Assembly: GCA_003554345.1 (NCBI GenBank)
Contig: PWGE01000166.1
Coordinates: forward strand, 1-13,926
Origin: T1SED10-198M sp003554345 [NCBI: Candidatus Sumerlaeota bacterium]
Lineage (GTDB): Bacteria; Sumerlaeota; T1SED10-198M
DNA length: 13,926 nucleotides
Direction: 5' to 3'
In this document: in pieces, positions 1 to 13,926 of the stretch
Numbering within the stretch: position 1 is the first letter of the stretch
Layout: every line of letters begins with the position of its first letter
Program-made: the position numbers and the translations under genes
Notes under the pieces: model-generated
What the model saw: only the letters and a program-made list of their open reading frames with translations
What the model was told of the DNA's origin: nothing
Database searches by the model: none

Positions 1-650
1 TAGAATCCTTGAATAAATGTTTTACATCAATGATACGTGGATGAAGTCAAGATAAGGCCAGAAAGAAAAAGAAACCAGAAAATTTGCATCGATGGACAGG
101 ATATGCAGGATATCAGAAAAAATTAATCTCATCAGATCCGAAAAAAGAAATGTAACAAGGATTGACAGGATGAAACAGGATGCCAGAGAAAAGATGATGT
201 TATCAGATCCTGGAAACTGAGTAGTATCTTTTTTTTCGTGTTTTTTCGTGTTTTTCGTGGTTTATTCTTATCTGAAAATAGAACCCTACAAATATAGTAC
301 CCGTTGCTAAAAAAACTTGCACTTCATGAGTGTATTTCTGCTGTTCCCGGGAGCGCCGATCTCTGACTTACAGTCTGCCTATGGCGGAATCGGCATCTTA
401 TTCTTATTCTGCAAGTTCACTCTGGCGGATTCATCATGGGTGGCGTCAGCACTCGTGCTGACATGAATAACTCCACTGAAAATAAATCTATTAAAGTCTG
501 TCTGATTCCGTGATCCTATATCTCCTATTGCTCATATTGGTCCTATCTGGTCATATTTATTCTGAAAGTTTACTCTAATGGGCTGTAAGTCCGCTTGTGA
601 CGGATTCATGATTAGTGATGCCTGTGCCGGTATAAGGATCTTAAGCAGCG
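1..650 (-). repeat. Mosaic intergenic repeat region R1
   Basis: No credible gene lies here. The stretch is built from modules found again, often inverted, at 5490-6432, 11053-11330 and 13257-13926. In order: CAGGAT-rich words (83-102 is identical to 5559-5578); a T-tract-CGTG tandem (229-260); a module starting GGGAGCGCCGAT near 349 and closing with ATCGGC near 390; a variable-hairpin unit (411-473); a segment with CCTATATCTCCTATTGCTC (about 513-531) that is the reverse complement of about 13715-13735; and a degraded second unit at about 560-635. Orientation is assigned relative to the unit at 13261-13330. The copies differ by many substitutions, so this is an old dispersed family rather than one recent insertion. 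Confidence 0.8.
411..473 (-). repeat. Variable-hairpin repeat unit, copy 1
   Basis: The unit contains a perfect 18-bp palindrome GTCAGCAC-TC-GTGCTGAC (435-452) next to the conserved spacer (reverse complement of GCCACC-N-ATGAAT). The CCGCC hairpin is half-degraded: GTTCACTCTGGCGG, with one arm changed to GTTCACT. The palindrome arms differ from those in the other copies, yet full complementarity is kept. Confidence 0.8.
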
Positions 651-678
651 AAACGGTGTTATCCCTCTTTCTTCCTGA

Positions 679-706
679 TTGCAGTTTGGGGGAAGTTATT
701 TACAAT
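679..706 (+). promoter_or_regulatory. Probable argJ promoter
   Basis: TTGCAG (679-684), a 16-nt spacer and TACAAT (701-706) match a sigma70-type promoter. Transcription would start near 713. An upstream in-frame TTG at 679 therefore lies inside the promoter, which argues for translation starting at the ATG at 739. Confidence 0.6.
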
Positions 707-738
707 ACAAGAATCAGCATTATGTGAAGGAGAGAAGT

Positions 739-1908
739 ATGCAGCACGTATTACCGGAGGGATATTCTGTAGGCGGTTATTGTGCCGGGCTGAAAAAATG
801 GGAAAAAGAAGATGTGGGTATCATTCTTTCAGAGACACCGGCAACGACGGCAGGCATCTTTACCGTCAATAAATTTCAGGCAGCTCCTGTGTATATTTGC
901 AAAGAGCATATTGATAATAATATATGTGCTGTACTTGCCAACAGCGGCTGTGCAAATGCCTGTACCGGCACGGAGGGTTATGAAAATGCTTTTTCCACGT
1001 TGCGTCAGGCGGCGCGCCGATTTGCCGTTCAGTCTTCTCAGATTTTGCCGGCTTCCACGGGGGTCATAGGTAAACAGCTGGAAGTTACAAAAATTAACAG
1101 GGCTATAGAAAAAGTGGAGACCGGCTTTATAGAGAAGCATCTGCAGGCTTTTGCCCGTTCTATTATGACGACCGATACCTTTCCCAAGATAGTGAGTCGA
1201 CAACTTTCTTTGAAAAAAGGTCCGGCAACCATTACGGCTTTCAGCAAGGGGGCGGGAATGATAGCTCCCAACATGGCTACCATGCTGGTATTTATATTAA
1301 CTGACGTAGATATTAAAAAAAGTCTTTTACATCAGATGCTTTCTCAAGCAGCTGATAGTACGTATCACAGTATTTCCGTGGATGGTGATATGAGCACCAA
1401 TGATAGCGTATTCTGTTTAGCCAATGGGCGTGCTGGGTCCATTAAAGGCAAAGAGGATTACTTTTATGAGCAGTTAAAGGGGGTAATGGAGGAGTCGGCA
1501 CGCTTGATAGTAAAAGACGGAGAAGGTGCCACCAAGCTCATTACCGTTGAAGTGAAATCGGCTCCATCAAAAGAAGTGGCTCATGGTATTGCCATGAAGG
1601 TGGCACGTTCCAACCTGGTGAAGACTGCTTTCTTCGGAGAAGATGCCAATTGGGGACGTATTATCAGCGCTGCCGGTAGTTACGAGGGAGATTTTGATCC
1701 CCGACCTATGGAGGTATATATTGGACCTCACCTTTTATTTAAAAACCTTGTACCGCTTGATTTTGATGAAGAAAAGGTGACCCGTACCCTGCAAGAAGAT
1801 GAGATAACCGTGTGTATTGATCTGAATCAAGGAGAAGCAGGTGCCAGAGCCTGGACCTGTGACTTTTCTTATGAATACGTCAGAATCAATGCCGACTATC
1901 GTACTTAG
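739..1908 (+). CDS. argJ: Bifunctional ornithine acetyltransferase / N-acetylglutamate synthase ArgJ
   Basis: ArgJ moves the acetyl group from N-acetylornithine to glutamate, closing the acetyl cycle of arginine synthesis in the cytoplasm; some members also use acetyl-CoA. The 389-residue product has the family signatures in order: NSGCANACTG (68-77), STGVIG (106-111), TTDTFPK (144-150), KGAGMIAPNMATML (170-183), FFGEDANWGR and the C-terminal CDFSYEYVRINADYRT. By family knowledge the precursor cleaves itself before the Thr of ATML, here Thr181, giving alpha and beta chains with Thr as nucleophile. The ATG at 739 has AAGGAG six bases upstream; an in-frame TTG at 679 would add 20 residues but sits in the promoter. 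No other arg gene is in the window. The stop codon overlaps the convergent radical SAM gene by 4 bp. Whether the enzyme is mono- or bifunctional cannot be read from sequence. Confidence 0.97.
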   Translation: MQHVLPEGYSVGGYCAGLKKWEKEDVGIILSETPATTAGIFTVNKFQAAPVYICKEHIDNNICAVLANSGCANACTGTEGYENAFSTLRQAARRFAVQSSQILPASTGVIGKQLEVTKINRAIEKVETGFIEKHLQAFARSIMTTDTFPKIVSRQLSLKKGPATITAFSKGAGMIAPNMATMLVFILTDVDIKKSLLHQMLSQAADSTYHSISVDGDMSTNDSVFCLANGRAGSIKGKEDYFYEQLKGVMEESARLIVKDGEGATKLITVEVKSAPSKEVAHGIAMKVARSNLVKTAFFGEDANWGRIISAAGSYEGDFDPRPMEVYIGPHLLFKNLVPLDFDEEKVTRTLQEDEITVCIDLNQGEAGARAWTCDFSYEYVRINADYRT

Positions 1909-3341
1909 GACGAAAAAAATATTTTACGAAAAGCCTTACATTTGGCTTTAAATTCAGACAGTGAACGGAGGCGAAGAATCTCGCGCAGAATTTTTTGAGG
2001 ACGCAGGTAAAAAGCTTTCATGGCTTTTTTTTGCCAGAATTGAAGGCGTTCTGCTGGCAGATGGGGATACGAAATGACCGCACTTCCTTCTTCTTCAAAT
2101 GCTTCCCATTTTCTGGTTGTTAAGAGGGAATGGTTACGGGCGTATTGGTAAAACTCCGTTCCCGGAAAAGGGGTGGCAATATGAAAATTGACAAAGTCAG
2201 GACGCAGTTTTCTGGCAAAACGAATGGTTTTTTTGATGGTCTGCTCTGTTTCTCCCGGTAAACCCAGTATGAAATAGCCAAAACTCAGAATACCTGCTTT
2301 GCGGGTAACTTTAATAGCTTTTCTTATATCCTCACTTGTGATATCTTTTCGGGCACTTTTCAGAATGTCAGGATGGGGGCTTTCAATACCGTAAGAAACC
2401 ATCAGGCAACCACTTTCTTTCATGGCTTGAAGCATTGGTAAATCTACTGCATCTACCCGGCTGTTGCAAATCCATCGGAGGGGGGTGGCTAACTCTTTGA
2501 GGGCTTTGCAGAAATCCATCACCCATTGACGGGAAAAAGTAAAAGAATCAGTCATGAACACCAGGTTTTTAATTTCGTATCGTTGAGTAATAAGTTCGAT
2601 TTCTCTGATAACATTTTCTACGCTTCTCAAGCGCACTTTACTTCCCCATACCCTGCCTGCCCGGCAGAAAGTACAGCGATACGGACAGCCGCGGGACGGT
2701 ATAATAGTTACAAATGGTTCATTATTAAAAAACGGCATGGTATAGCGCTCTAATCTCATCAGGCAGCGTTCCGGGAAAGGAAGATTATCCAGGTTTGTAA
2801 CATAGGATGGTGTATGATTCACATGTATAGAACCGTCATCCTGTTTGAATGCCAGGGCGGGAATGTCCTTTGCTTTTGATCTCCAGGATTTAAAGAAATC
2901 TTTCCAGATGGGAACCAGGAAAGAAAGGGTGTTTTCTGCTTCATTGATTAATACGAAGTCTATTTCTTCGCTTTTACAGGTTTCTTCGGTATAGACTGAT
3001 GAATGTGTCCCCACCATCCCTATCAGGCTTTCTGGTAGATATTCTTTAATAAGGCGGGCATTTTGCAAATCATTGTTGAAAGTAGGGGTGGTGGTCAACA
3101 TGATAATGACGGAGGGTTTGTGATTGAGAAGATATAACTTGAGGTTCTCAAAATGCAGGTGGGGCAGCATACCGTCCCAGAAGAGAGGTTGAGCTCCACT
3201 CTCCCCGGCAACGGCTGCAAGTGAGGCAAGACCGGTGGGCGGCCAGTATTCGCCGGCAATACTTTTGCGCCCACAGCGACCAACTTCTTTCATATAGACG
3301 GATCCCATTAAGTGCGGTGGATTGAGAAAAAGAATTTTCAT
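1905..3341 (-). CDS. B12-binding-domain radical SAM protein
   Basis: This 478-residue protein has the layout of cobalamin-dependent radical SAM enzymes of the BchE/HpnP type. An N-terminal Rossmann-like B12-binding domain (about 1-160) begins MKILFLNPPH and contains GTHSSVYTEE and DFVLINEAENTL, equivalent to the usual GGPHAT...PE and D-x-V-x-x-GEGE-x-T. The radical SAM domain follows with CxxxCxxC at Cys219, Cys223 and Cys226 in SRGCPYRCTFC, then YGIESPHPDIL and GLPGETEQT. The C-terminal tail is basic. Family members methylate or rearrange unactivated carbons using SAM and a 4Fe-4S cluster; the substrate here cannot be named. The start codon overlaps the stop of the upstream peptidase gene (ATGA), so the two are translationally coupled and share a promoter. 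Its stop overlaps argJ from the opposite strand. Confidence 0.88.
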   Translation of the reverse strand: MKILFLNPPHLMGSVYMKEVGRCGRKSIAGEYWPPTGLASLAAVAGESGAQPLFWDGMLPHLHFENLKLYLLNHKPSVIIMLTTTPTFNNDLQNARLIKEYLPESLIGMVGTHSSVYTEETCKSEEIDFVLINEAENTLSFLVPIWKDFFKSWRSKAKDIPALAFKQDDGSIHVNHTPSYVTNLDNLPFPERCLMRLERYTMPFFNNEPFVTIIPSRGCPYRCTFCRAGRVWGSKVRLRSVENVIREIELITQRYEIKNLVFMTDSFTFSRQWVMDFCKALKELATPLRWICNSRVDAVDLPMLQAMKESGCLMVSYGIESPHPDILKSARKDITSEDIRKAIKVTRKAGILSFGYFILGLPGETEQTIKKTIRFARKLRPDFVNFHIATPFPGTEFYQYARNHSLLTTRKWEAFEEEGSAVISYPHLPAERLQFWQKKAMKAFYLRPQKILREILRLRSLSEFKAKCKAFRKIFFSS

Positions 3342-4408
3342 GGTTGGGAAAAGGGATCCTCCGAAATGGATAAATGAGGTTCTTTTGAGCTCATGCGTAC
3401 CGGGGCTCCTATGGGAAGAGGAAGATTATCACGAATGTGCCCAACAGGGAAATCATAAATAATCGGATAGTCATATTCTCCCAGGAGGTCATCAAAAACT
3501 ACTTCCAGGGTATAATCAGGTTCCTCATCGTAGCCTTCAATATTGACAAATCTGCCCAGTATTAATCCATTGAGTTTATCCAGAGCTCCGGAAAGCTTTA
3601 TCTGGGTTAACATGCGGTCGATTTTGTAAAGGGGTTCTCCTACATCTTCCAGGAAAAGGATTTTGCCATCCCAGTCAGGTTCATAGGGGGTACCTATCAT
3701 TGAGGAAACAAGGCTCAGGTTGCCTCCGATGAGTTGTCCGCTGGCACTGCCGGAGTTCAAAGTTTGTACCTCAATGGAGTCGACGGCATTTTCCTGGTGT
3801 CCGCCCCAGTCTGAGAGGCTGATGGAATCGTTATCTTCCGCAAGGATGAGGGCTTTGAGATGTTCGAGAGCATAGGGACGTGGCTGAGGATTTCCCCAGA
3901 GGAAAATGACGCCGGTAGAATGAACAGAAGGGAAGCCGGCTTTTGACTGCAGGGCAAAATGCAAAGCGGTGTTATCTGAAAACCCGACGAATATTTTCGG
4001 GTTTTCCCGGATTGTTTCCCAGTCTAAGTGGTCTAATATGCGCATAGCGCCATATCCGCCGGCAATGGTAAAAATGGCTTTCACTTCAGGATTGGTGATC
4101 ATTTCCATGAACTCTTCGGCGCGCACCTCATCTCTGCCGGCTAAGGCTCCATATTTTCGCTCTCGCAGATCTTCACGATAGATAACATTGAGACCCTGAT
4201 TTTCCAGGGCTTTTATCCCTTTTTCGAACATCTCGATATCATAGCGGGTTAAAGAATTGGCTGGAGCAATAACACCTACTGTATTTCCCTCTTGCAATAA
4301 GGATGGTGCCTCCAGCCGTGCTTTAGTTTTATTTTCAGCTTCAGACGACAGCGTAACACTGAAAATGAAGCATACAACAAATAGAATAAAAAAGCGTGTT
4401 TTTCTCAT
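3338..4408 (-). CDS. Secreted S66-family peptidase (LD-carboxypeptidase / MccF-like)
   Basis: The S66 family includes LD-carboxypeptidase A, which trims the terminal D-Ala of murein tetrapeptides, and MccF, which inactivates microcin C. The 356-residue product has the family frame: LLQEGNTVGVIAPA (37-50), AIFTIAGGYGAMRIL (111-125), the nucleophile motif VGFSDNTAL with Ser144, GGNLSL (228-233), FLEDVGEP with Glu254, and FPVGHIRDNLPLPIG with His324. Ser, Glu and His form the known catalytic triad. Unlike classic cytoplasmic LdcA, it begins with a charged stretch plus hydrophobic core (MRKTRFFILFVVCFIFSVTL) and a possible cleavage site after SSEA (residue 24), so export to the periplasm is inferred. 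GGGAGGG (4414-4420) lies five bases before the ATG. It is the first gene of a two-gene operon with the radical SAM protein. True substrate unknown. Confidence 0.9.
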   Translation of the reverse strand: MRKTRFFILFVVCFIFSVTLSSEAENKTKARLEAPSLLQEGNTVGVIAPANSLTRYDIEMFEKGIKALENQGLNVIYREDLRERKYGALAGRDEVRAEEFMEMITNPEVKAIFTIAGGYGAMRILDHLDWETIRENPKIFVGFSDNTALHFALQSKAGFPSVHSTGVIFLWGNPQPRPYALEHLKALILAEDNDSISLSDWGGHQENAVDSIEVQTLNSGSASGQLIGGNLSLVSSMIGTPYEPDWDGKILFLEDVGEPLYKIDRMLTQIKLSGALDKLNGLILGRFVNIEGYDEEPDYTLEVVFDDLLGEYDYPIIYDFPVGHIRDNLPLPIGAPVRMSSKEPHLSISEDPFSQP

Positions 4409-4434
4409 AATTGCCCTCCCTGGATAATTAAAAT

Positions 4435-4443
4435 ATTATAACA
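4435..4443 (-). promoter_or_regulatory. Extended -10 promoter of the peptidase / radical SAM operon
   Basis: On the minus strand TGT-TATAAT gives a perfect -10 (4435-4440) with an upstream TG (4442-4443). No good -35 stands at the normal distance, which fits an extended -10 promoter. It sits about 27 bases before the peptidase start and diverges from the pilin promoter. Confidence 0.55.
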
Positions 4444-4507
4444 TATCCTGTTTTTACTTAGGGATTCAGGCTCTATAAAAAATTTATTGAAGATATTGAA
4501 AAAAAAG

Positions 4508-4536
4508 TTGCAGGAAGTAGAAAAAACAAGTATAAT
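4508..4536 (+). promoter_or_regulatory. Pilin promoter
   Basis: TTGCAG (4508-4513), 17-nt spacer, TATAAT (4531-4536). The spacing is ideal and the gene start is 54 bases downstream, with an AAGGAGG ribosome site at 4578-4584. Confidence 0.65.
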
Positions 4537-4589
4537 AAATTATATGAGATGAAAAGTTTTATACCACTATTTATAATAAGGAGGTCTTT

Positions 4590-5234
4590 ATGATGAGAAA
4601 AAGAGGGTTTACACTCATCGAACTTTTGATTGTTGTGGCAATTATTGCTATCCTGGCGGCAATTGCCATACCCAACTTTTTGCAGGCACAAACACGTGCT
4701 AAAATCTCGCGGGTCCAATCAGACCTGCGCACGTATGCCACAGGTCTGGAATCGTATTACGTGGACTACAATGCGTATCCCCCCATGGCAGATTATCCGG
4801 AACCGGCGGTAGAAGATGGGAGTTATACAGAACATTTTCATTCTCGTTTCCCCACTTATCTGACAACGCCTGTTGCCTATATCAGCAATATTTTGTACGA
4901 TCCCTTTATTCCTTCCGAAACCCATGAACTGATCCAGTTTGGAGAGGGTACTGAAATGGCGCGCCGTTACATCTATTTTAATTATTCTGAATTTATAGAG
5001 ACACTTGGTGATGACCCTGACCCGGACAGCTTTTTCGTCCGCATGCAAAGCCTCGTCGGTCCCTGGCTCACCTATAGCTGGGGTCCCAATACAGATTATG
5101 AAAACTCCCCAGCAGATTATGTTTACATTAACTATGATCCTACGAATGGAACCATAAGTCTGGGTAACATTTTCCGAACTCAAGCGCACTCTGAATCTCC
5201 ACCCTTTGAAGAGGAATTCGAAAGCTCCAGGTAG
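4590..5234 (+). CDS. Type IV pilin-like / type II secretion pseudopilin (GspG-like)
   Basis: The 214-residue product starts with a class III prepilin signal: MMRKRG|FTLIELLIVVAIIAILAA. Prepilin peptidase would cut after Gly6, leaving an N-methylated Phe and the conserved Glu at mature position 5 (Glu11). The hydrophobic helix continues through NFLQAQTRAKISRVQSDLRTYATGLESYYVDYNAYP, the usual GspG/PulG helix ending. The C-terminal domain is acidic and ends in GPNTDY...YDPTNGTISLGNIFRTQ, a tail recalled from pseudopilins of several candidate phyla. AAGGAGG at 4578-4584 serves the first ATG (spacing 5); the second ATG at 4593 is possible too. The gene stands alone between its promoter and a strong terminator, and no secretion ATPase, platform protein or peptidase is nearby. 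It could be a minor pseudopilin or a surface filament subunit. Confidence 0.9.
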   Translation: MMRKRGFTLIELLIVVAIIAILAAIAIPNFLQAQTRAKISRVQSDLRTYATGLESYYVDYNAYPPMADYPEPAVEDGSYTEHFHSRFPTYLTTPVAYISNILYDPFIPSETHELIQFGEGTEMARRYIYFNYSEFIETLGDDPDPDSFFVRMQSLVGPWLTYSWGPNTDYENSPADYVYINYDPTNGTISLGNIFRTQAHSESPPFEEEFESSR

Positions 5235-5262
5235 TACATAGTTCGAGGAATTACATGTCAAT

Positions 5263-5300
5263 AAAAGAGGAGGCGTTCCGAATAGACGCCTCCTTTTTTT
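5263..5300 (+). terminator. Rho-independent terminator of the pilin gene
   Basis: GGAGGCGT (5269-5276) pairs with ACGCCTCC (5286-5293) across a 9-nt loop, followed by seven T. An A-run precedes the stem. It sits 29 bases after the stop codon. Confidence 0.93.
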
Positions 5301-5489
5301 ATGGAATACATTTTGAACTCCTGGGAACGCTGTCAGTGTATGTATAATAAAATATTTTTGGTAAGACTTCTATCAACGAATTAATATTTTTTTTTGTAGT
5401 CGGCACATGAAGACGCTTGCTTTATGATAAAGAAAGAACCGCTTTAATGGTGCTTTTTTTACGGAAGGTGTACTTTAGTCAGCCAGAAA
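5301..5489. other. Gene-free AT-rich spacer
   Basis: No coding region is seen. TATAAT at 5343-5348 lacks a matching -35. A weak hairpin (AAAG-x-ACC / GGT-x-CTTT, 5433-5456) followed by a T-run could end a short transcript, but the evidence is thin. Confidence 0.4.
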
Positions 5490-6028
5490 ACAAAATATTC
5501 AACAGGGATATACAGAATAAAACTAGATGAAGACAAAAATGATTAAGAATACAGAATATTTGCATCGATGGACAGGATAATCAGGATAGGAAACAAAGAC
5601 AAACAAACCCCGGAATAAGAATGCATCACGAAAAATTTCCAGGCTCGCAAAGTGAACCCCATAGAAGATATATTGAGGAAGAACTCAAAGAAAACAAAGT
5701 CCGCAAATCCTTCAGAGTAAACTTTCAGGAAGACAGAAAATCAGCATCGGAAAAAAGAAGATGTAACAAGGATATACATAATGGAGAGGATACCGGAATA
5801 AGATAAAAGAGAGAATTATTGTCACCGGAATTATCTTTTTTTCGTGTTTTTCGTGGTTTATTCTTATCTGTAAATAGACTCTTCAAAATATAGTAAACGT
5901 TACTAAAAAAACTTATACTCCATTAGTGTATTTCTGGTTTCCTGGGAGCGCCGATCTCCGACTTACAGTTCACTATGGCGGTCTGAAAGTCCGCCTCTGG
6001 CGGAATCGGCATCTTGTTCTTATTCTGC

Positions 6029-6091
6029 AAGTCCGCCTATGGCGGATTCATAATTGGTGGCGGCAGCCCTCGCGCTGGCGTGAGGAACTCC
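6029..6091 (-). repeat. Variable-hairpin repeat unit, copy 2
   Basis: A perfect CCGCC hairpin TCCGCC-TAT-GGCGGA (6032-6046), the conserved spacer and a variable hairpin CGGCAGC...GCTGGCG (6061-6080) with one G-G mismatch. Confidence 0.8.
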
Positions 6092-6290
6092 TCTAAAAAT
6101 AGAACCTTTTTGAGACGCAAAATATTGCCTGGCTACCCTGAGATAATTTGACGTTTCTTTCAAAATATTTGTGATGGTCTTTTTTGCGAGCTTTTTTATC
6201 TTTTGCGATCTTGACTGATTCTTTGTCTTCTTTGCGGCTTGGCGACCTTTGCGTGATACTTTCTTTTTCTGAATTTTTTTTATTCTGAAA

Positions 6291-6350
6291 GTTCACTCTG
6301 GCGGATTCATGATTGGTGGCGGCAGCCTTTGCGCTGGCGTGAATAACTCC
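6291..6350 (-). repeat. Variable-hairpin repeat unit, copy 3
   Basis: GTTCACTCTGGCGG (one arm of the fixed hairpin lost), the conserved spacer, then CGGCAGC...GCTGGCG (6320-6339). The variable hairpin matches copy 2 in arms but differs in loop. Confidence 0.8.
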
Positions 6351-6432
6351 TCTGATGTCATTGGCCATTCTGAGTTGTACAATGTTGAGTCTCCACCTTT
6401 TGACAAATTGATGTTTCTTTCCGAAGGTTTAA

Positions 6433-6799
6433 TGAGGGCATATTCGTGGTCGTTGTTTTTAGCAATATTGACTTTTCAAAGTCAATGGTTGTATCACTAG
6501 CAGAGAAATGATGTGAAATTATTACCGGGAGTTCCGGTTAAAAAATGTACATGCCCGAACACTTGTGTTTTTTTTTAATAAATGCTCCAACAATTCAGAA
6601 TAAATCCCTGCATATAATTAGAAAGTTAAAATAAGAATATGATCGGCGATACTAAAAGGAATGAAAAAATCAAGAGGTAAAAATTACAGCCTATGGGCAA
6701 AGAATTGTTCAGGTTATAAACTCATCAGCATTGAGGCCTGATCAATTTTAGAAAAATTTTCCATTCATTACGAAAGTTCCAAAAATGATGCTGACGATT
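6433..6799. other. Gene-free spacer with one perfect palindrome
   Basis: No gene is supported. A 20-bp palindrome ATTGACTTT-TC-AAAGTCAAT lies at 6468-6487, not followed by a T-run, so it is more like a binding site or cruciform than a terminator. The rest is AT-rich. No convincing terminator for the minus-strand transporter ending at 6800 was seen. Confidence 0.5.
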
Positions 6800-8224
6800 C
6801 TATTTTTTCTTCTGTTTGGTTTGAGCAGAAGATGGGAATGTGGAAGGTTTTTTAACCTTTTCCCCCGTTTTCTTGAAGCTTTTGAGATACTGGGTAGAAA
6901 AACCCAGAAATGTCTCCCGGGCACGAAAGATACCAATGCCAAAGAAGTTTTTCATAAGACCTCTCAAACGAGGGTCTTTAACAGCTTCTACTTTTTTCAA
7001 AGGAATACCTGCACAGAGCCGGGCAATGAGACCCAGTAAAAAAAGAAACTGTATTCCATAAAAAGTCTGTCCGAATACTTCTATGGAAAAAGGTCTGAGC
7101 CATTGTGCCAGTAAACCGGCTATTACACCCGCCACCAGTGCTACGGCGCCTAATATTATGGCATAAACGCCTAAATAACTTTCAGCAGGGTCATCAACTG
7201 TTTCTAAGAGGAAATTGAAAAAAGCCAGATTAACTGCTGAAAAAGAAAAGGCCGTGATGATATGGTCAAGAAAAAGAGCAAAATGGACGTTGGCAGGATT
7301 CATGATCAAATAGAGAGCGGGAGAGAGTACTGAAAGATGTATTCCAATATAAAGAAGTGGTTTATTTCCAAAACGATCAGCCACTTTACCGTAGATAACA
7401 TATAAGACAATAGAAAATAGACCTGTTATAACAGTCATCTGTCCCAGAAAACTATTAGGAACGTGCATATATTCCAGGGCAAAATAAAAGAAAAAAGGCC
7501 GGGTGAGTTCCAGGGCAAATACCCATACAGCGCAAAATGTCAGAAAACTGCGAAAATTACGATGGGTGAGAGGGGTGCGTAAATCAAGGTGATGAAGGGG
7601 TTCCTTTTTTTTCGGAAAGCGGTGATGAGAGAGCAATCGAATGGTGACTAAGGCAAAAAATGATGCCAGCAGGGTCACCAGAAATATTCCGACACCTTTC
7701 CAGGGTAAATCCAGAAGATAAGAGTAAAAAAGAGTGAAAAACATGCCGCTGGAGGTAACGAATAAAGACCTCATCCCGAAATATCTACCCCTTTTTCGCT
7801 GGGGGATCAGCATTCTCATGCCTGTAGTCCAGATATTATTAATAAAAGCACTCATGAGAGAAAACAGAAGTATAACCACAAAAAGAAGCCACGGCTCATT
7901 AAGGCCTACCAGTACCGCAAAAGGGAGAAGAATGAAGGGAAAACGGGCTCCTATGGCGGCAAAAGTAAGGGCTTTTCTTTGACTGCGGCAGCATTTTTGA
8001 TACAGGGGACAGATCACCTGAAAGACCTGGGCGATGACCGGCATAACGGAAAGCATAGAAATCAGAAAAGGAGAAGCCTGAAAATAGATCGCCAGCGTGA
8101 TCAGAATAAAACCATGGGTGGTTACGAAAAAACCATTAAAAAATAGCCCTTCCCAGAGGGCTGTTCGCATGGTATGATTATAGTCTGACCAGTTTTTCTG
8201 GAAATAGTGTTTGATAAAAAGCAA
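6800..8224 (-). CDS. MFS-type membrane transporter
   Basis: The 474-residue product is a hydrophobic membrane protein with about 12 predicted helices in two halves (roughly 24-198 and 224-410), separated by a basic loop (199-222, HHRFPKKKEPLHH). Between helices 4 and 5 is PQRKRGRYFGMRSLF (141-155), like the P-x-x-RGRYFG motif of bacterial MFS proteins of unknown substrate. YGKVADRFGNKPLL (278-291) is the MFS motif A equivalent in the second half. The tail from 445 on is basic and probably cytoplasmic. The longest frame starts at a TTG at 8224 with only a poor ribosome site (AAGAAA); an ATG 18 codons later (8170) has none, so the start is uncertain. A faint TTGAGT-16-TAATTT promoter lies upstream. 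Its upstream edge coincides with the end of the duplicated A/B block. Substrate unknown. Confidence 0.85.
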   Translation of the reverse strand: MLFIKHYFQKNWSDYNHTMRTALWEGLFFNGFFVTTHGFILITLAIYFQASPFLISMLSVMPVIAQVFQVICPLYQKCCRSQRKALTFAAIGARFPFILLPFAVLVGLNEPWLLFVVILLFSLMSAFINNIWTTGMRMLIPQRKRGRYFGMRSLFVTSSGMFFTLFYSYLLDLPWKGVGIFLVTLLASFFALVTIRLLSHHRFPKKKEPLHHLDLRTPLTHRNFRSFLTFCAVWVFALELTRPFFFYFALEYMHVPNSFLGQMTVITGLFSIVLYVIYGKVADRFGNKPLLYIGIHLSVLSPALYLIMNPANVHFALFLDHIITAFSFSAVNLAFFNFLLETVDDPAESYLGVYAIILGAVALVAGVIAGLLAQWLRPFSIEVFGQTFYGIQFLFLLGLIARLCAGIPLKKVEAVKDPRLRGLMKNFFGIGIFRARETFLGFSTQYLKSFKKTGEKVKKPSTFPSSAQTKQKKK

Positions 8225-8283
8225 TGGATTGTTTCTTAAATTAAAGAATAATTAAGTTAACTCAATAAAATCATAACAATAGG

Positions 8284-8322
8284 AATAAAAAAAACCGGGC
8301 TTGCTTGCACAAGCCCGGTTTT
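8284..8322 (-). terminator. Rho-independent terminator of gene A1
   Basis: A perfect 13-bp stem (8291-8303 with 8310-8322, core CCGGGCTTG/CAAGCCCGG) has a 6-nt loop. On the minus strand it is followed by eight T. It lies 35 bases after the A1 stop. Confidence 0.95.
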
Positions 8323-8357
8323 CAGAAAAAACTATTCGTATGTCTTCTTCAGATTAA

Positions 8358-9389
8358 TTAATACTGTTCCCAGCTGTCAACATCAACAGGAGCCTGAATT
8401 TCCCATACGCCTACAAAGTTATTGGTGGCACCTGCGGCTACATATAGCTTTACGAATCCGTCTTCTATATAAGCATAAGGATATACTGAAGCACCTCCAG
8501 TTCCATTCGTGTTTGTGTTGACAAGATAATCATCAATCTCAGCAGTAGCTACACGAACTCCTGTTTGCGCATTATAAATGCTCACGTTAGGATAATCTGT
8601 ACCTGGATCTTGCCCGGTAAGACCAACATATTGATATCCTTCAATATCAAAATAAACGTTACTCATTAAAGTGCCGGACTGACTGAATGGAGCTTCCTCA
8701 ATAATGTCTCCTGATTGTCGCTCATAGATATTAAATCCACCTAAATGTCCTAATGCAAAATTGCCATCGGGTAAGAAACCGGAACTCAGGTTTTCTACTT
8801 CATCTTCTACCTGTCGTATTTCAACGTCTGCTGGATCTGTCCAATTTCCTGCAGCTGTCCTTCTGACCAGAAAATACATTCCTTCACTTCCGAAGCCTCC
8901 GCTCATCAAGATTTCAGTGTTTCCAAAAGAATCCTGACGGGTAGTTAAAGCGTCACCTGTTCTAATTCCTTCTGCATCTTCCATGGTCCAGACTTCGGGA
9001 TCCTCGCAATCTTCGTCAGAGTAGAAGTAAATATAAGGATCATCGCCAGCTACAGCCAGGTTTGCCACTACAATCTGGCCGGTAGGCAGAACATCTATGT
9101 TAGCCACACCTCTGGTACCATCGAAACCTTCTTCTGGTTCTGCTAAGGTGCCAATGTGACCTCCATGTCTGCCCTCGAAGATATGAACTTCAGCTGGATC
9201 TCCCACTGCAACCAGAATATTACCGGTTTTGGGATTACCTGCTACTCCACGTAACTCGTTATTGTCTTCAGAAGTCCAATCCTCTTCGCCAGGTTCAATA
9301 ACCCACCGTTCATTTAGCTCCCAGTCGTAATCCGCCATAAGTGGAAGAAGAAGACAAAGAACGCTGATGAGCATTACAAGTTTTCTCAT
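8358..9389 (-). CDS. Secreted beta-propeller-like protein A1
   Basis: The 343-residue product has a clear signal peptide, MRKLVMLISVLCLLLPLMA, with cleavage likely before Asp20. The mature part shows recurring propeller-style segments: NPKTGNILVAV (52-62), LPTGQIVVANL (101-111), SFGNTEILMSG (154-164), FLPDGNFALGHL (205-216), DIEGYQYVGL (248-257), NVSIYNAQTGVRVAT (268-282) and KLYVAAGATNNFVGVWEIQAP (314-334). The pattern recalls DUF4623-type secreted proteins, from memory and unchecked. No catalytic residues or anchor are evident, so a periplasmic or released binding/structural role is only a guess. GGAGG stands nine bases before the ATG. The gene has its own promoter and terminator, so it can be expressed alone. 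It is a close paralogue of 11542-12576 and a distant one of 9621-10688. Confidence 0.85.
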   Translation of the reverse strand: MRKLVMLISVLCLLLPLMADYDWELNERWVIEPGEEDWTSEDNNELRGVAGNPKTGNILVAVGDPAEVHIFEGRHGGHIGTLAEPEEGFDGTRGVANIDVLPTGQIVVANLAVAGDDPYIYFYSDEDCEDPEVWTMEDAEGIRTGDALTTRQDSFGNTEILMSGGFGSEGMYFLVRRTAAGNWTDPADVEIRQVEDEVENLSSGFLPDGNFALGHLGGFNIYERQSGDIIEEAPFSQSGTLMSNVYFDIEGYQYVGLTGQDPGTDYPNVSIYNAQTGVRVATAEIDDYLVNTNTNGTGGASVYPYAYIEDGFVKLYVAAGATNNFVGVWEIQAPVDVDSWEQY

Positions 9390-9433
9390 AGAAAAAGCCC
9401 TCCTTTTTTATTTTTTCATCGTCATCACTATCT

Positions 9434-9462
9434 AATATATATTATTTTTTCTAAAGTGTCAA
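9434..9462 (-). promoter_or_regulatory. Promoter of gene A1
   Basis: On the minus strand TTGACA (9457-9462), 17-nt spacer, TATATT (9434-9439): near-consensus. The leader of about 40 bases ends in AAGGAGG. The -10 lies between two 9-bp direct repeats TATTTTTTC (9409-9417 and 9443-9451). Confidence 0.85.
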
Positions 9463-9620
9463 GTTTTATTTGTAAAAAGTCCGCTAAATATTTCCTTTTC
9501 ATAAAACAACTATCTTGAGTACTTATTTTGGAATGAACTAGTAGTATCTTTACATATCAGTATATACAGGTATCGCATTCGCAGGTGAGGCTTGTATTCC
9601 TTGTAACTTTATTTTCCAAT

Positions 9621-10688
9621 TCATTGCCGGGGAACCTCTTCCACTTCGATGGGAGCCTCTACTTCCCAGACTCCCAGGTAGTTATTAGTTGCCATGGCTG
9701 CCACATAGAGTTTAGGGTCTCCTCCATCATAGCTGTATGGAAAGAGTGAAACATCACCGGCTCTCAGCCTGTTTTCATTGAGGTTAGACAGCTCGCTGAT
9801 ATCGGCTCGTCCTACTTTTTCACCTTCTCTATCATCGTATATGGCAATATAGTCGTGTCCATCAAATTCAGATCCCTGTACCGGTGCACTTGCAAGGTAG
9901 TGGTCTCCTTCAATGTCAACATAGAGATTACTGATAATAGCCTGGGGCGGAAGTTTGATAGCACCTTCCATTATCATGGCACCGTAACGGTCTATTTGCT
10001 CATAGCGTCCCCAGAGTTCGTGGACATAAAAAGACCCATCTGGAAGCATGGTTACAGAATGAAAGGCAGGATTGCCATCTACTTCGGGTTCTTTGACTTC
10101 CCAGTAACCACGGGCATAATTAGCCTGGATAATATCGCCGGGAGTAATAGCAGCTGCTATGAGCCGTACGTTTCCATAAAGGTCTTCTGTTATTGCCAGG
10201 GTATCTCCCAGGCGTTTGGGTTCCTCTGTTTGATGTACGAGAATTTCGGGCTCTGTATCCTCTTCGTTTTCATAAAGGTATATTTTAAAAGGAGCTTCGG
10301 AGGCATCGGCAGTGAAGTTACAAACGGCTATAGTCCCTGAAGGAGCGGCTATCACCTGGCTGACCATCAACAAGCCGCCCGTAAACCCATCTTCCGGTTC
10401 GGGGAGTGTTCCAATCTTTTCTCCGCTACTACCATCTAAAATAATCACCCGGCTTTTATTACCGTCAGCCACCAGGATGTTGCCTGTGCGGGGATTAGCG
10501 GTCATGCCAAGCGTTATATCATTTTTCTCAAACCACTCTTCTTCGCCAAATTCAACAACCCATTTCTCGGTAAATTGCCAGTCATGATCGTCAGACTGAT
10601 CATTTTCTGCTTTTTCAGAGCTGTCTTCAGCTATAACCCACATTCCAAGTAACATTATCATTAAAAAATATAAACCGAACCGTTTCAT
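9621..10688 (-). CDS. Secreted beta-propeller-like protein B1
   Basis: The 355-residue product begins with a signal peptide (MKRFGLYFLMIMLLGMWVIA, cleavage likely after Ala20) and then an acidic linker (EDSSEKAENDQSDDHD) absent from the A proteins. The body shares the A framework: WQFTEKWVVEFGEEEW (37-52), NPRTGNILVADG (65-76), KIGTLPEPEDGFTGG (91-105), APSGTIAVCNF (115-125), MLPDGSFYVHEL (214-225), SNLYVDIEGDHYLAS (253-267) and KLYVAAMATNNYLGVWEVEAP (326-346). This is the same beta-propeller-like fold family; function unknown. AAGGAGG stands eight bases before the ATG. The gene has its own promoter, and no clear terminator was found in the 231 bases before A1, so read-through into A1 is possible. 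Its shrunken paralogue is at 12753-12968. Confidence 0.85.
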   Translation of the reverse strand: MKRFGLYFLMIMLLGMWVIAEDSSEKAENDQSDDHDWQFTEKWVVEFGEEEWFEKNDITLGMTANPRTGNILVADGNKSRVIILDGSSGEKIGTLPEPEDGFTGGLLMVSQVIAAPSGTIAVCNFTADASEAPFKIYLYENEEDTEPEILVHQTEEPKRLGDTLAITEDLYGNVRLIAAAITPGDIIQANYARGYWEVKEPEVDGNPAFHSVTMLPDGSFYVHELWGRYEQIDRYGAMIMEGAIKLPPQAIISNLYVDIEGDHYLASAPVQGSEFDGHDYIAIYDDREGEKVGRADISELSNLNENRLRAGDVSLFPYSYDGGDPKLYVAAMATNNYLGVWEVEAPIEVEEVPRQ

Positions 10689-10730
10689 GGTGTTGTCCTC
10701 CTTGTCAATTCAGGGCAAACTTTACTGTTT

Positions 10731-10759
10731 ATAATATATTATATTCAATCATTAGTCAA
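10731..10759 (-). promoter_or_regulatory. Promoter of gene B1
   Basis: On the minus strand TTGACT (10754-10759), 17-nt spacer, TATTAT (10731-10736). The arrangement is preserved in the degraded copy upstream of 12968. Confidence 0.75.
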
Positions 10760-10890
10760 GAAGAAAAAATATTGCAGAATTATCTGGTGAGACTACATCA
10801 TCTGAAAAAGCCTTCAATAACAGAGAAGAAAAAAGTTCTGAAAAAGTGGTAAAGAAAACACTTTGCATATTATGTGGAATATTATTCATG

Positions 10891-11052
10891 ATAGAGCAGA
10901 ACAAGGCGACTTTAGGGAAAAACAGGTAGACTTATATGGACTGGCATGGACGTTATGGATATGAAAACAATAATACGGATCGAATATATCTGTTGTTGTA
11001 AGGTCTGGACAATTTTTAAGTTTCCTCCAGGCTGCTGTAAGTTGTTTTCAAA
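10891..11052. other. Unique spacer between B1 leader and repeat
   Basis: This is the only part of the 10689-11052 gap with no counterpart in unit 2. Two tiny frames (10872-10964, 30 codons; 10936-11001, 21 codons) have no good ribosome site, so no gene is called. Confidence 0.4.
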
Positions 11053-11330
11053 GGGAGTTATTTATGTCAGCGCGAGGGTCTGGCGCCACCAATCATGAAT
11101 CCGCCATAGGCGGACTTGCAGAATAAGAACAAGATGCCGATACCGCCAGAGTGAACTGTAAGTCGGAGATCGGCGCTCCCAGGAAGGCAGAAATACACTA
11201 ATGGAGTACAAGTTTTTATAGCGACGTATACTATATTTTGAAGGGTCTATTTTCAGAGGAGTTGTACACGCCGGCACAAGTACTGAAGCATCCAATCATA
11301 AACCCGCCAGAGTGACCTTTTAGAATAGAG
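11053..11330 (+). repeat. Mosaic intergenic repeat region R3
   Basis: This block is inverted relative to 1-650 and 5490-6432. It holds one variable-hairpin unit (11053-11128, with a perfect TCCGCC-ATA-GGCGGA at 11100-11114 and a weak variable hairpin GTCAG...CTGGC that uses a T-G pair), the GCCGAT/ATCGGC module in reverse complement (11131-11180), and a strongly decayed unit (11256-11330, CGCCGGCAC... and CCCGCCAGAGTGACC). It separates the two duplicated gene modules. The 77-codon minus frame across it is repeat sequence, not a gene. 11331-11407 is a further degraded tail with nothing recognisable. Confidence 0.8.
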
Positions 11331-11472
11331 TTTTATTGCCATTTCAAGAGTGGACTTTAAAAGTTTTTTCTTAAGGTAGCGTTATTTTTAGAGGAATTTT
11401 TGAAAAAATTGTTTCAGAAAACAAAGAAAAGAATAATGTAATTGCCAGAATAAAATTACAAACAGTAGAAGT

Positions 11473-11508
11473 AAAAAAAAACCGGACCTGATAAACAGGC
11501 CCGGTTTT
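11473..11508 (-). terminator. Rho-independent terminator of gene A2
   Basis: The stem (11478-11490 with 11496-11508) has a 5-nt loop and on the minus strand is followed by a T-run. Compared with the A1 terminator, one pair changed on both sides (T-A to C-G). Another position is A-C on the plus strand but G-U in the minus-strand RNA, so the RNA stem is intact. Confidence 0.9.
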
Positions 11509-11541
11509 TAGAAAACCTGTAAGCTCTATGTCTTCTTCAAA

Positions 11542-12576
11542 TTAATAGAGTTCCCAGCTGTCAACATCAACAGGTGCCTGGATTTCCCATACGCCGATAT
11601 AGTTGTTATGACAGATAGAGGCAATATACAGTTTTGTAAATCCGCCAGGTGTGTAAGCATACGTATATACAATAGCTGAGCCGGCGCCGTTAAGGTTACG
11701 GTCACCTTCCATGTATTCAGTTATATCCTTGGTGGCAACCCGTACACCGGTTTGAGCATTATAGATGCTGACGTTGGGATCATCAGGATGGCTATCTGGA
11801 AAATCAGGATCTGCAGTACGAGGAGTAACACCGATATAATTAAAACCGTCAATGTCGCTATAAACGCTGCCTATGAAAACCTGTCGCTGACTCATTGGAG
11901 CTGGTCCAATAAGAGAGCCGTCGCGATTATTCCTGGTTATATAAGGGTCTCCGGCAAGAGTTGAAATAATCAATGATCCATCAGGATAATAACCAGCGGC
12001 ATAGTTGTTATTTACACCTTCCAGAGTGATGGTAGATTCTCCCCATCCACCAGTGGCGCCGCGACGAACGCGTAATGCGTCACTGAACCGACCGGTCAGA
12101 ATCTCCAGGTTCCCGTACAGGTCTTCACGTGCAGCCAGGCTGTCACCAGTACGATAAGGTACCGACGTTTCGTATATTTCAGGATCAGTGTCGGTTTCGC
12201 TGTCGTATAAATAAATCTTGACAGTACCGTCACCAGTCTGCAGGTTATTTACAACAATACGACCTGATGGCAGGGCGACAATCTGGTTAACAGCAAAAGT
12301 TCCGCCGGTAAAGCCACCTTCTGGTTCGGGTAAAGTTCCGATATAGGAACCATCTCTACCATTCAGAATATGAACGGCAGTCCCGGCTGTTCTGCTGGGT
12401 ACCAACACATTGCCTGTTTTGGGATTTGCTGCACCGGCTCTTACGGTATTGTCAGCCTGAAACCAGTCAACATCACCTGCTTCAATCACCCACCTTTCAG
12501 TTAATTCCCAGTCCCAATCAGCCATGAGGGGAAGAAGAAGACAAAAAACACCAATGAGTGTTAATAGTTTTCTCAT
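11542..12576 (-). CDS. Secreted beta-propeller-like protein A2
   Basis: The 344-residue product is a close paralogue of A1. The signal peptide is MRKLLTLIGVFCLLLPLMA, the mature start is DWDWELTERWVIEAGDVDW, NVSIYNAQTGVRVAT is identical in both, and the tail GVWEIQAPVDVDSWELY differs from A1 by one residue. The middle is more divergent and in places closer to B1 (IGTLPEPEGGFTGG against IGTLPEPEDGFTGG, and KIYLY). Repeated segments include NPKTGNVLVPSRTAG, ALPSGRIVVNNL, DLYGNLEILTG, YYPDGSLIISTL and DIDGFNYIGV. The frame is intact with no stops, and the ribosome site GGAGG is kept. However, the promoter seen at A1 is deleted here, so expression may come from the B2 promoter about 440 bases upstream. 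It may be a functional variant or an early pseudogene. Function unknown. Confidence 0.83.
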   Translation of the reverse strand: MRKLLTLIGVFCLLLPLMADWDWELTERWVIEAGDVDWFQADNTVRAGAANPKTGNVLVPSRTAGTAVHILNGRDGSYIGTLPEPEGGFTGGTFAVNQIVALPSGRIVVNNLQTGDGTVKIYLYDSETDTDPEIYETSVPYRTGDSLAAREDLYGNLEILTGRFSDALRVRRGATGGWGESTITLEGVNNNYAAGYYPDGSLIISTLAGDPYITRNNRDGSLIGPAPMSQRQVFIGSVYSDIDGFNYIGVTPRTADPDFPDSHPDDPNVSIYNAQTGVRVATKDITEYMEGDRNLNGAGSAIVYTYAYTPGGFTKLYIASICHNNYIGVWEIQAPVDVDSWELY

Positions 12577-12615
12577 AGAAAAAGTCCTCCTTTTATATTT
12601 TTTCTAAAGTGTTAC
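12577..12615 (-). promoter_or_regulatory. Disabled A2 promoter remnant
   Basis: Reading on the minus strand, GTAACACTTTAGAAAAAATA runs straight into TAAAAGGAGG. A1 has TTGACACTTTAGAAAAAATA followed by 34 extra bases that include the -10. Only one TATTTTTTC (12596-12604) remains of the two direct repeats at A1. The -35 has also drifted (GTAACA). Confidence 0.75.
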
Positions 12616-12680
12616 TTCTTTTTTTAAAGACCCTGTTGAAGATTTACCATTCGAAATTTTCAACGCTAACAATCGTGCAG

Positions 12681-12708
12681 AAAAAAATGATGGAAATATT
12701 TTTTCCAT
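12681..12708 (-). terminator. Weak possible terminator downstream of B2 remnant
   Basis: On the minus strand an AT-rich 7-bp stem (ATGGAAA/TTTCCAT, 5-nt loop) is followed by CA and seven T. The stem is weak, so read-through into A2 is likely. Confidence 0.3.
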
Positions 12709-12752
12709 TTGCTTATCCAGAGTTTTTTTAATGTTTAATCTATTTTCCCTTT

Positions 12753-12968
12753 TCATTCCTCTGGAATTCCTTTTACTTTGATGAGGGGGTCCACTGCCTG
12801 GACTACCGGGTAGTTATTAGTTGCAATGACTGCCGGTTGGAGCTTGAGATTTGTTGCAACATACATGAAGGGAAAGAGCGAAACATTGCCTGTTTCAGCT
12901 CTATCTCGTGATATAAGCTTTACGCCGGATAGAAACATCCTTAAAAAGTATAATCGAGGTGGCTTCAT
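12753..12968 (-). pseudogene. B2: internally deleted paralogue of B1
   Basis: The 71-codon frame joins the two ends of a B-type gene. Residues 1-22 (MKPPRLYFLRMFLSGVKLI) match B1 residues 1-22 (MKRFGLYFLMIMLLGMWVI), and residues 23-71 match B1 from about 309 to the end: GNVSLFPFMY against GDVSLFPYSY, AVIATNNYP against AAMATNNYL, and an ungapped tail of the same length to the stop. About 285 codons are missing in frame. Basic residues interrupt the signal-peptide core, and the conserved GVWE is changed to VVQA, so both export and fold are probably lost. The ribosome site (AAGGAAGG) and promoter remain. A functional micro-protein is possible but unlikely. Confidence 0.85.
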
Positions 12969-13011
12969 GGCATTGCCTTCCTTGTTAACTTCAGCTTGTA
13001 TTCACTCATTA

Positions 13012-13040
13012 ATATTACATTATATTCTGGCAAAAGTCAA
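13012..13040 (-). promoter_or_regulatory. Surviving promoter of B2, possible driver of A2
   Basis: On the minus strand TTGACT (13035-13040), 17-nt spacer, TAATAT (13012-13017). It matches the B1 promoter in position and spacing even though the gene it served is gutted. Confidence 0.65.
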
Positions 13041-13256
13041 GAAAAAAACCGTATTATACAGATATTTTCATCAGGTAGTATAATTTAATCCACCATTATT
13101 CAAGAAAAAAACTATCATAAAAATATTTACATCCTCTATGTTGTAGAATTATCCGGTGAGAACACGTCACCTGAAAAGCTCAAAATAGAGAAGAAAAATT
13201 TACAGAAACTTCTGTAGAAAAAGAAAAAAGAGAATTTCGTATGTTTTGTGGAATTT
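13041..13256. other. Spacer upstream of B2, right end of duplication unit 2
   Basis: No gene. From about 13143 the sequence parallels the region upstream of B1 (GAATTATCCGGTGAGA here, GAATTATCTGGTGAGA there). About 60 bases (13075-13135), with a repeated TTCAAGAAAAAAAC-like word, are additional compared with B1. Confidence 0.55.
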
Positions 13257-13260
13257 CGCC

Positions 13261-13330
13261 GGGAGTTCCTCACGCCAACTCAGAGTTGGCGCCACCAATC
13301 ATGAATCCGCCAGAGGCGGACTTTCAGAAT
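13261..13330 (+). repeat. Variable-hairpin repeat unit, reference copy
   Basis: Variable hairpin CGCCAACT-CAG-AGTTGGCG (13273-13291, perfect), spacer GCCACCAATCATGAA, fixed hairpin TCCGCC-AGA-GGCGGA (13306-13320), end CTTTCAGAAT. Confidence 0.85.
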
Positions 13331-13583
13331 GAAAAAAATCCAGAAAAAGAAAGTATCACGCAAAGCCGCAAAGTCATACCACGGAGAAGAAATAGTGGTT
13401 GAAGATAAAGACCGCAAAGGTCAAGAAAGAACGCAAAGCAGAGGAATGTTTTCTGAAAAAGAGAGAACCCAGAAAAGAATGCATCATGCTAAGGACCATA
13501 TAAAGTCGCAAATCCGCCAGAGGCGGTTTTTCAGGAAGACCATGACAAACATTTTGAAAGACCCATCAAATTATCTCAAGGTA

Positions 13584-13605
13584 GAGACGCAATATTTTGC
13601 GTCTC
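13584..13605. repeat. Perfect GAGACGCAA palindrome
   Basis: GAGACGCAA-TATT-TTGCGTCTC, 9-bp arms. The surrounding 70 bases match the reverse complement of 6105-6180, where one arm is broken. Confidence 0.8.
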
Positions 13606-13620
13606 AAAAGAGTTTTATTT

Positions 13621-13695
13621 TCAGAGGAGCTATTCACGCTGATGCAGACATCAGCGCCACCAATGATGAATCCGCCAGAGGCGGACTTTCAGAAT
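13621..13695 (+). repeat. Variable-hairpin repeat unit, full copy
   Basis: CGCTGATG-CAGA-CATCAGCG (13637-13656, perfect), GCCACCAATGATGAA spacer, fixed hairpin TCCGCC-AGA-GGCGGA (13671-13685), then CTTTCAGAATAA. Confidence 0.85.
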
Positions 13696-13772
13696 AAATA
13701 TGACTGATAGGACCAATAAGAGCAATAGGAGATATAGGACCACGGAATCAAACAGACTCTAATAGTTTTATT

Positions 13773-13815
13773 TTCAGAGGAGTTATTCACGCTGATGCGG
13801 ACATCAGCGCCACCA
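13773..13815 (+). repeat. Variable-hairpin unit lacking the fixed hairpin
   Basis: CGCTGATG-CGGA-CATCAGCG (13790-13809, perfect) and GCCACCAATAATGAA, after which the sequence switches to an A-rich CGCAAAG module. The arms equal those of the neighbouring unit; the loop differs by one base. Confidence 0.8.
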
Positions 13816-13926
13816 ATAATGAAAAAAAATCAAGAAAAAGAAAAGTATCACGCAAAGCCCGCAAAGTCGCAAAGAAAACAAAGAATCAGTCAAGAACGTA
13901 AAAGATAAGAAAGAACGCAAAGTCAA

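Follow-up and report, generated by a model that had tools for sequence, protein, structure and literature searches.

A modular intergenic repeat with a covarying, possibly REP-like hairpin in a Candidatus Sumerlaeota genome

The stretch of DNA analysed here, referred to as the window, is contig PWGE01000166.1 (C306; 13,926 nucleotides) of assembly GCA_003554345.1 from T1SED10-198M sp003554345, a Candidatus Sumerlaeota bacterium, an assembly of 2.55 Mb that is split over 454 contigs and is 87.7% complete. A covariance model search places nine copies of a hairpin-bearing repeat in the window, including one that has decayed, and a tenth row at 4579-4597 (E 0.89) is at chance level. The initial annotation of this DNA had listed seven copies and had placed most of the hairpins correctly and all of those given within ten bases, with 435-452 now corrected to 445-462 and 13637 to 13638. 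The model spans 46 positions, less than a whole repeat unit, and rests on 51 sequences, each with a distinct 20-nt hairpin, including the window copies at 11257, 6306 and 6047.

Three of the unit starts lie on the reverse strand, at 430-475 (lead, type C hairpin at 445-462, and core; 55.5 bits), 6306-6351 and 6047-6092, the last two being the first and second units of an array, each with a type D hairpin in which one inner pair is mismatched. The decayed copy (605-644; 17.5 bits, E 0.026) shares the orientation of the 430 copy and lies upstream of it, and a TATTTTCAGATAAG variant of the right end follows the 430 unit at 267-280, also on the reverse strand. The forward strand carries a first unit at 11053-11099, with an imperfect hairpin and one extra base, whose right end GTCTATTTTCAGAGGAG (11245-11261, read from the sequence) abuts a second unit at 11257-11302, also with an imperfect hairpin. 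A further forward array starts at 13261-13305 with a perfect type B hairpin (13273-13291) and continues with array-internal units at 13625-13670 and 13778-13823, both with perfect type A hairpins (13638-13657 and 13790-13809); the right ends TTTTATTTTCAGAGGAG of the 13261 and 13625 units were read at 13613-13629 and 13766-13782. The claim that pairing is kept between copies holds for most of those in the window, but the CGGCAGC/GCTGGCG copies (hairpins at 6061 and 6320, pairing at 6 of 8 positions) have one mismatch in seven pairs, and those at 11053 and 11257 have only 4 of 8 positions paired.

The repeat is abundant in its own genome. The core pattern GCCACCAATNATGAA has 165 matches in the assembly at up to two mismatches (96 + 69), vs. 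18 (7 + 11) for the reversed pattern, and 122 vs. 0 at up to one mismatch. The description of the repeat as a mostly intergenic hairpin family is confirmed by these counts and by the finding that only 3 of 30 arrays, all taken from stretches of 1200 bases or more, fall inside an open reading frame (ORF) of at least 120 aa. The copies studied further were the first 100 of the 165 places listed plus any copies adjacent to them in the same stretch, which leaves decayed copies under-represented and biases core conservation upward; of the first 30 copies on the list, 14 lie no more than 200 bases from a contig end. For the hairpin comparisons 107 of 113 copies could be anchored, with three cut by contig ends and three without a recognisable lead left out.

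Each unit consists, in order, of a lead GAGTTNNTCA, the 8-bp hairpin, the core GCCACCAATNATGAA, an optional CCGCC module, a body and a right end GTTYTATTTTCAGAGGAG (short form TTTTCAGAGGAG), with the unit start, read in the direction of the core, falling between GAG and TTNNTCA. Bodies combine a few recurring blocks in mosaic fashion and measure 73 to 456 bases (80 measured units), giving whole units of roughly 130 to 520 bases. The second hairpin, CCGCC-N3-GGCGG, had been taken for a constant part of the frame, which does not hold, as 46 of 117 units have the CCGCC module after the core (two further units are cut) and 15 of those 46 carry a GCGG partner, with 27 beginning TG and 4 otherwise. 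This 22-nt module is present at several module junctions, including that of GATGCCGAT and CGGAGATCGG, where 36 sites are filled and 15 empty, and it looks self-inserting. A miniature element (MITE) derived from IS200/IS605 would carry subterminal hairpins at both ends and have a cognate TnpA (Y1); here the left hairpin is present, and by eye a right-end hairpin is inconsistent between body types. Degenerate short-period motifs (CGCAAAG, ACAGGAT, CACGAAAA and ATAGGACCAAT) were also seen by eye in the window at 61-300, 5460-5860 and 13340-13900, and recur in bodies elsewhere.

Beyond the right end GTTYTATTTTCAGAGGAG lies unique DNA, another repeat module or, with no gap, the next unit. Neighbouring units up to 600 bases apart are arranged exclusively head-to-tail (37 pairs in the same orientation, none opposite). 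Ahead of the first-in-array units (41), the DNA is near background further than about 18 bases before the hairpin, with a weak TTTYAGGGGAG-like preference inside those bases. No terminal inverted repeats or target duplications were visible by eye in 21 listed rows, two of which have a right end in common and two or more of which run on into another decayed unit. Hairpin type is weakly linked to the module that follows it (p 0.06 for the 68 internal units, p 0.008 for the full 119) and shows no link to the preceding module (p 0.54), suggesting that modules have been largely, though incompletely, reassorted.

The arms of the hairpin covary. Because the copies were found through sequence beside the hairpin, the arms themselves are free of ascertainment, with the exception of the closing base of the 3′ arm. 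Among the 58 distinct hairpins from the 94 of 107 anchored copies with hairpins of 19–21 nt, 328 of 464 pair positions are Watson-Crick, vs. 247 ± 9.6 (maximum 278) in 2000 re-dealings of whole 3′ arms. In the 51-sequence set, three measures exceed all 500 shuffles: cells changed on both sides (71 vs. 33 ± 6.3), cells paired (81.6% vs. 72.8 ± 1.3) and the covariation score (0.494 vs. 0.336 ± 0.021), the last of which falls to 0.207 or less when the structure is slid by one to three columns. As the copies are related, an R-scape-like null with substitutions simulated on a tree was also used, and the summed stem score of 87 lies far outside it (mean -0.2, standard deviation 14.6, maximum 50.6 in 1000 simulations), although the 291 Watson-Crick cells equal the maximum of that null and are not in excess. 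The helix therefore covaries as a whole, bearing out the covariation claimed in the initial annotation at the level of the stem, whilst hardly any single pair is significant alone. The outcome that the initial annotation had named as refuting, few arm types without covariation, was not seen: 103 copies carry 49 distinct arm pairs, even if 57 of 69 internal units belong to types A, B, B′ and C.

Read on the opposite strand, the tetranucleotide GTGG stands directly 5′ of this 8-bp palindrome of variable sequence, the four bases of the corresponding CCAC after the hairpin on the + strand being kept at 68, 70, 71 and 68 of 76 sites located via the right end and lead. This agrees with repetitive extragenic palindromic (REP) sequences, for which PMC3686654 gives as definition a GT(A/G)G tag ahead of a palindrome whose composition varies, with eight or nine perfect pairs immediately next to the tag in stenotrophomonads. 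PMC3733652 describes GTGG-tagged forms as well as subfamilies whose stems use alternative, complementary residues, and PMC3116915 calls it common for REPIN hairpins to carry compensatory changes in both arms and notes tandem arrays, so covarying arms are already known for such repeats. The present repeat resembles REPs associated with REP-associated tyrosine transposases (RAYTs), e.g., the GTGG-tagged family of O. terrae, in high copy number, a mostly intergenic setting, an 8-bp palindrome at GTGG, a short loop and alternative complementary stems. It differs in that both flanks are conserved in long units, whereas flanking DNA is diverse in most published REPs (PMC3733652), and in that neighbours are exclusively head-to-tail and no intact RAYT was found. 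Pseudomonas REPINs share the compensatory changes and tandem arrays but are inverted doublets, whereas 37 of 37 neighbours are direct here. The BOX elements of pneumococci, described in PMC3049150 as modular, structured, short, of variable length and mostly restricted to few species, are alike in these respects, but have terminal inverted repeats and target duplications. The literature searched yielded no description of the present repeat.

A REP-like hairpin was among the readings offered in the initial annotation and fits best. Taken as a whole, the observations are best explained, at a probability of roughly one half, by REP-like, non-autonomous DNA repeats that head modular head-to-tail units, and a REP-type mechanism is likely to lie behind the repeat. 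The GTGG-tagged hairpin on the opposite strand would be, or once have been, the site at which an HUH/Y1 (RAYT-type) nuclease recognises single-stranded DNA, and copies with a good hairpin would be preferentially propagated, so that compensatory changes may become fixed in propagating lineages. Copies out of circulation would decay irrespective of pairing, and recombination among the units of an array would reassort and homogenise the interior whilst sparing the edges. Within one genome, the family illustrates a REP-like palindrome that alters its sequence yet retains its fold, some one-sided intermediates having survived, and it ties REP-like hairpins to modular head-to-tail arrays with homogenised-looking interiors. 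Covarying REP and REPIN arms being known already, what differs here is the conserved flanks, the unit arrays, the lack of inverted doublets and the failure to find an intact RAYT.

Several findings weigh against this explanation. A REP-type transposase elsewhere in the genome had been suggested as a check, and a profile search of the assembly did give one Y1 transposase match (C235:3408-3641), which is truncated, covering profile positions 44-121 of 121 and so lacking the first 43, and no intact copy was found. We read this fragment as RAYT-like; a repeat copy lies about 290 bases upstream of it and the contig ends at 3724, but a different, GTAG-tagged palindrome stands between the fragment and that nearest copy. 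The GTGG tag is conserved no better than the remaining core bases, none of the 37 neighbour pairs is an inverted doublet, and neither an empty site nor unit movement is evidenced within this single assembly, which is itself incomplete and fragmented. Two shuffle measures, those described as least misled by relatedness, show no excess: pairs with a two-sided change (8 vs. 7.1, reached by 176 of 500 shuffles), a measure that is at its ceiling because all eight pairs vary, and further pair types (17 vs. 17.8, reached by 432 of 500). The best single pair reaches an E of only about 0.12 in the tree-aware analysis, or under 0.02 in a larger run of 87 distinct sequences from 103 rows, in which the second-best pair has an E of 0.77 and the four top-scoring column pairs are all stem pairs. 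Lastly, an older subfamily among first and edge units could explain part of the edge effect set out below.

Selection on RNA structure, with the hairpin acting in transcripts (in mRNA stability, termination or as a small RNA), would also produce stem covariation, and the mostly intergenic setting and the RNA roles proposed in the REP literature (PMC3733652) are in keeping with it. If RNA pairing were selected on the modelled strand, however, G·T mispairs should exceed A·C mispairs, and the two are about equal in the 58 distinct hairpins (43 and 36; two-sided binomial p 0.50). Of the 22 arrays (out of 30) with an upstream gene in view, 9 share its orientation and 13 oppose it; no Rfam family is present in the window at gathering scores, and 49 of 61 distinct hairpins occur once and contain one or more non-Watson-Crick pairs. 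An undescribed class of structured RNA, as once suggested for this repeat, is thus unsupported, and selection on RNA structure appears unlikely. The equal mispair counts and mixed orientation instead favour a constraint at the DNA level on copies that spread, followed by decay, although single copies may still have RNA roles. The family could be used to test mobility against RNA function as the source of hairpin constraint.

The manner in which the arms changed bears on template switching (quasi-palindrome correction), in which one arm is copied from the other and covariation arises without selection. Perfect hairpins are common inside arrays, and a minimum spanning tree of the 49 arm pairs, which is a network summary and no history, holds 10 pair changes that are two-sided in one step and has 3 to 6 changes on 20 of its 48 edges, with types A, B, C and D linked across a gap of 4. 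Against this, the tree holds 89 one-sided pair changes, first-in-array hairpins remain imperfect, and a single purine/pyrimidine skeleton, YRYYRRY, is present at 787 of 812 arm positions (97%), with 198 transitions and 25 transversions in the arms. Elsewhere, the ratio of transitions to transversions is 79:53 in the loop with pair 8, 31:29 in the core, 53:41 in the first-unit lead and 70:17 in one body block, the last of which indicates that transitions are favoured there as well and not in the arms only. One complete single-step chain also survives, from arm pair B (14 copies) through an A·C intermediate (4 copies) to the compensated form (5 copies). One skeleton is common to the arm types, some of which are joined by surviving one-sided intermediates, and wholesale rewriting of both arms, which the initial annotation had offered as one possibility, is not needed despite the remaining gaps of 3 to 6 changes; single events of this kind may have occurred. 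As a general explanation, template switching is therefore quite unlikely.

Array edges differ from array interiors. In a comparison of 110 units (of 119, without three close to piece ends and six whose hairpins are shorter than 16 nt), internal hairpins (68) pair at 7.1 of 8 positions, 37 of them perfectly, vs. 5.1 of 8 for first-in-array hairpins (42; Mann-Whitney p 3e-9). Mismatches in the 12 lead positions average 0.44 in internal and 1.60 in first-in-array units, and in the 18 right-end positions 0.53 where another unit adjoins (30 units) and 1.64 otherwise (50 units; p 4e-4). The simplest reading is that the interior has been homogenised by recombination between units, whilst edges beside unique DNA escape, but a founding subfamily of greater age, or a polarity like that of integrons, would leave a similar edge pattern. 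The former belongs to an account by plain descent, in which a few founder arm types were amplified without constraint on pairing and first-in-array hairpins are an older subfamily; it fits the contrast between internal units, dominated by types A, B, B′ and C, and first or edge units, of which 35 of 50 are type D or unassigned, and also the two shuffle measures without excess. Set against it are the three measures that beat every shuffle and the stem score above all 1000 simulations. That first-in-array units are simply older was also considered and has been lowered in standing, as none of ten core and body blocks differs significantly between them and internal units (smallest p 0.056) and the pooled body divergence does not separate first from internal units (p 0.13), with p 0.046 for last vs. 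non-last. Plain descent is accordingly quite improbable.

The search for enzymes that might move the repeat returned, besides the Y1 fragment, no match in the assembly to the integron integrase TIGR02249, the reverse transcriptase RVT_1 or the TnpB family, and none to the tyrosine recombinase PF00589, hence no XerC/XerD, which all 14 of 14 control genomes possess; assembly gaps are possible, and the incompleteness of the assembly qualifies each of these negatives. Small dispersed repeats such as those of Nostoc reportedly move via RNA intermediates, and the 22-nt CCGCC module, with its filled and empty sites, recalls them, but with no RVT_1 match such a mode of movement is very unlikely here. 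Still less probable are integron-like cassettes, in which a recombinase inserts units at the folded hairpin and the first hairpin is a fixed attachment site, since, for all the common unit ends, head-to-tail order, reassorted bodies, structure-conserved hairpins at junctions and a divergent first hairpin ahead of uniform internal ones, neither recombinase has a match, the hairpin stands at the start of the unit and not its end, and bodies of this length hold little gene space. Nor does the repeat fit what we take to be the integron core-site consensus. It is conceivable, if somewhat unlikely, that the repeat represents a new class of modular intergenic element, with cassette-like units that have shared ends and exchangeable bodies, joined head-to-tail by a recombination system that would read the covarying DNA hairpin at each junction without a tyrosine recombinase, the first hairpin being a fixed, slowly diverging anchor.

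The relatives compared for the distribution of the repeat comprised 39 of the same phylum and others sharing only the domain, so that its range is resolved at the level of the phylum and above. A 271-base query has no match in 60 of these relatives, and the core pattern at one mismatch has 0 to 8 matches per relative vs. 122 in its own genome. The covariance model finds one weak match in 1 of 98 relatives (E 0.007, with 62 candidates scored per genome), which is taken as chance, as are the single matches in each of 18 IMG/VR stretches and in each of at least 80 stretches of GTDB contigs. Plasmids and phages gave no match to the repeat.

The GTAG-tagged palindrome just upstream of the Y1 fragment may perhaps represent a second REP family; GTAGGGGC[AG]GAC was counted 5 times among the stretches examined. 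Three neighbouring and similar proteins are encoded in the window at 8358-9389, 9621-10688 and 11542-12576 (reverse strand); they have no Pfam match at E 0.001, their DNA is similar too, and by eye a remnant of a fourth seems to be present near 12760-12970.

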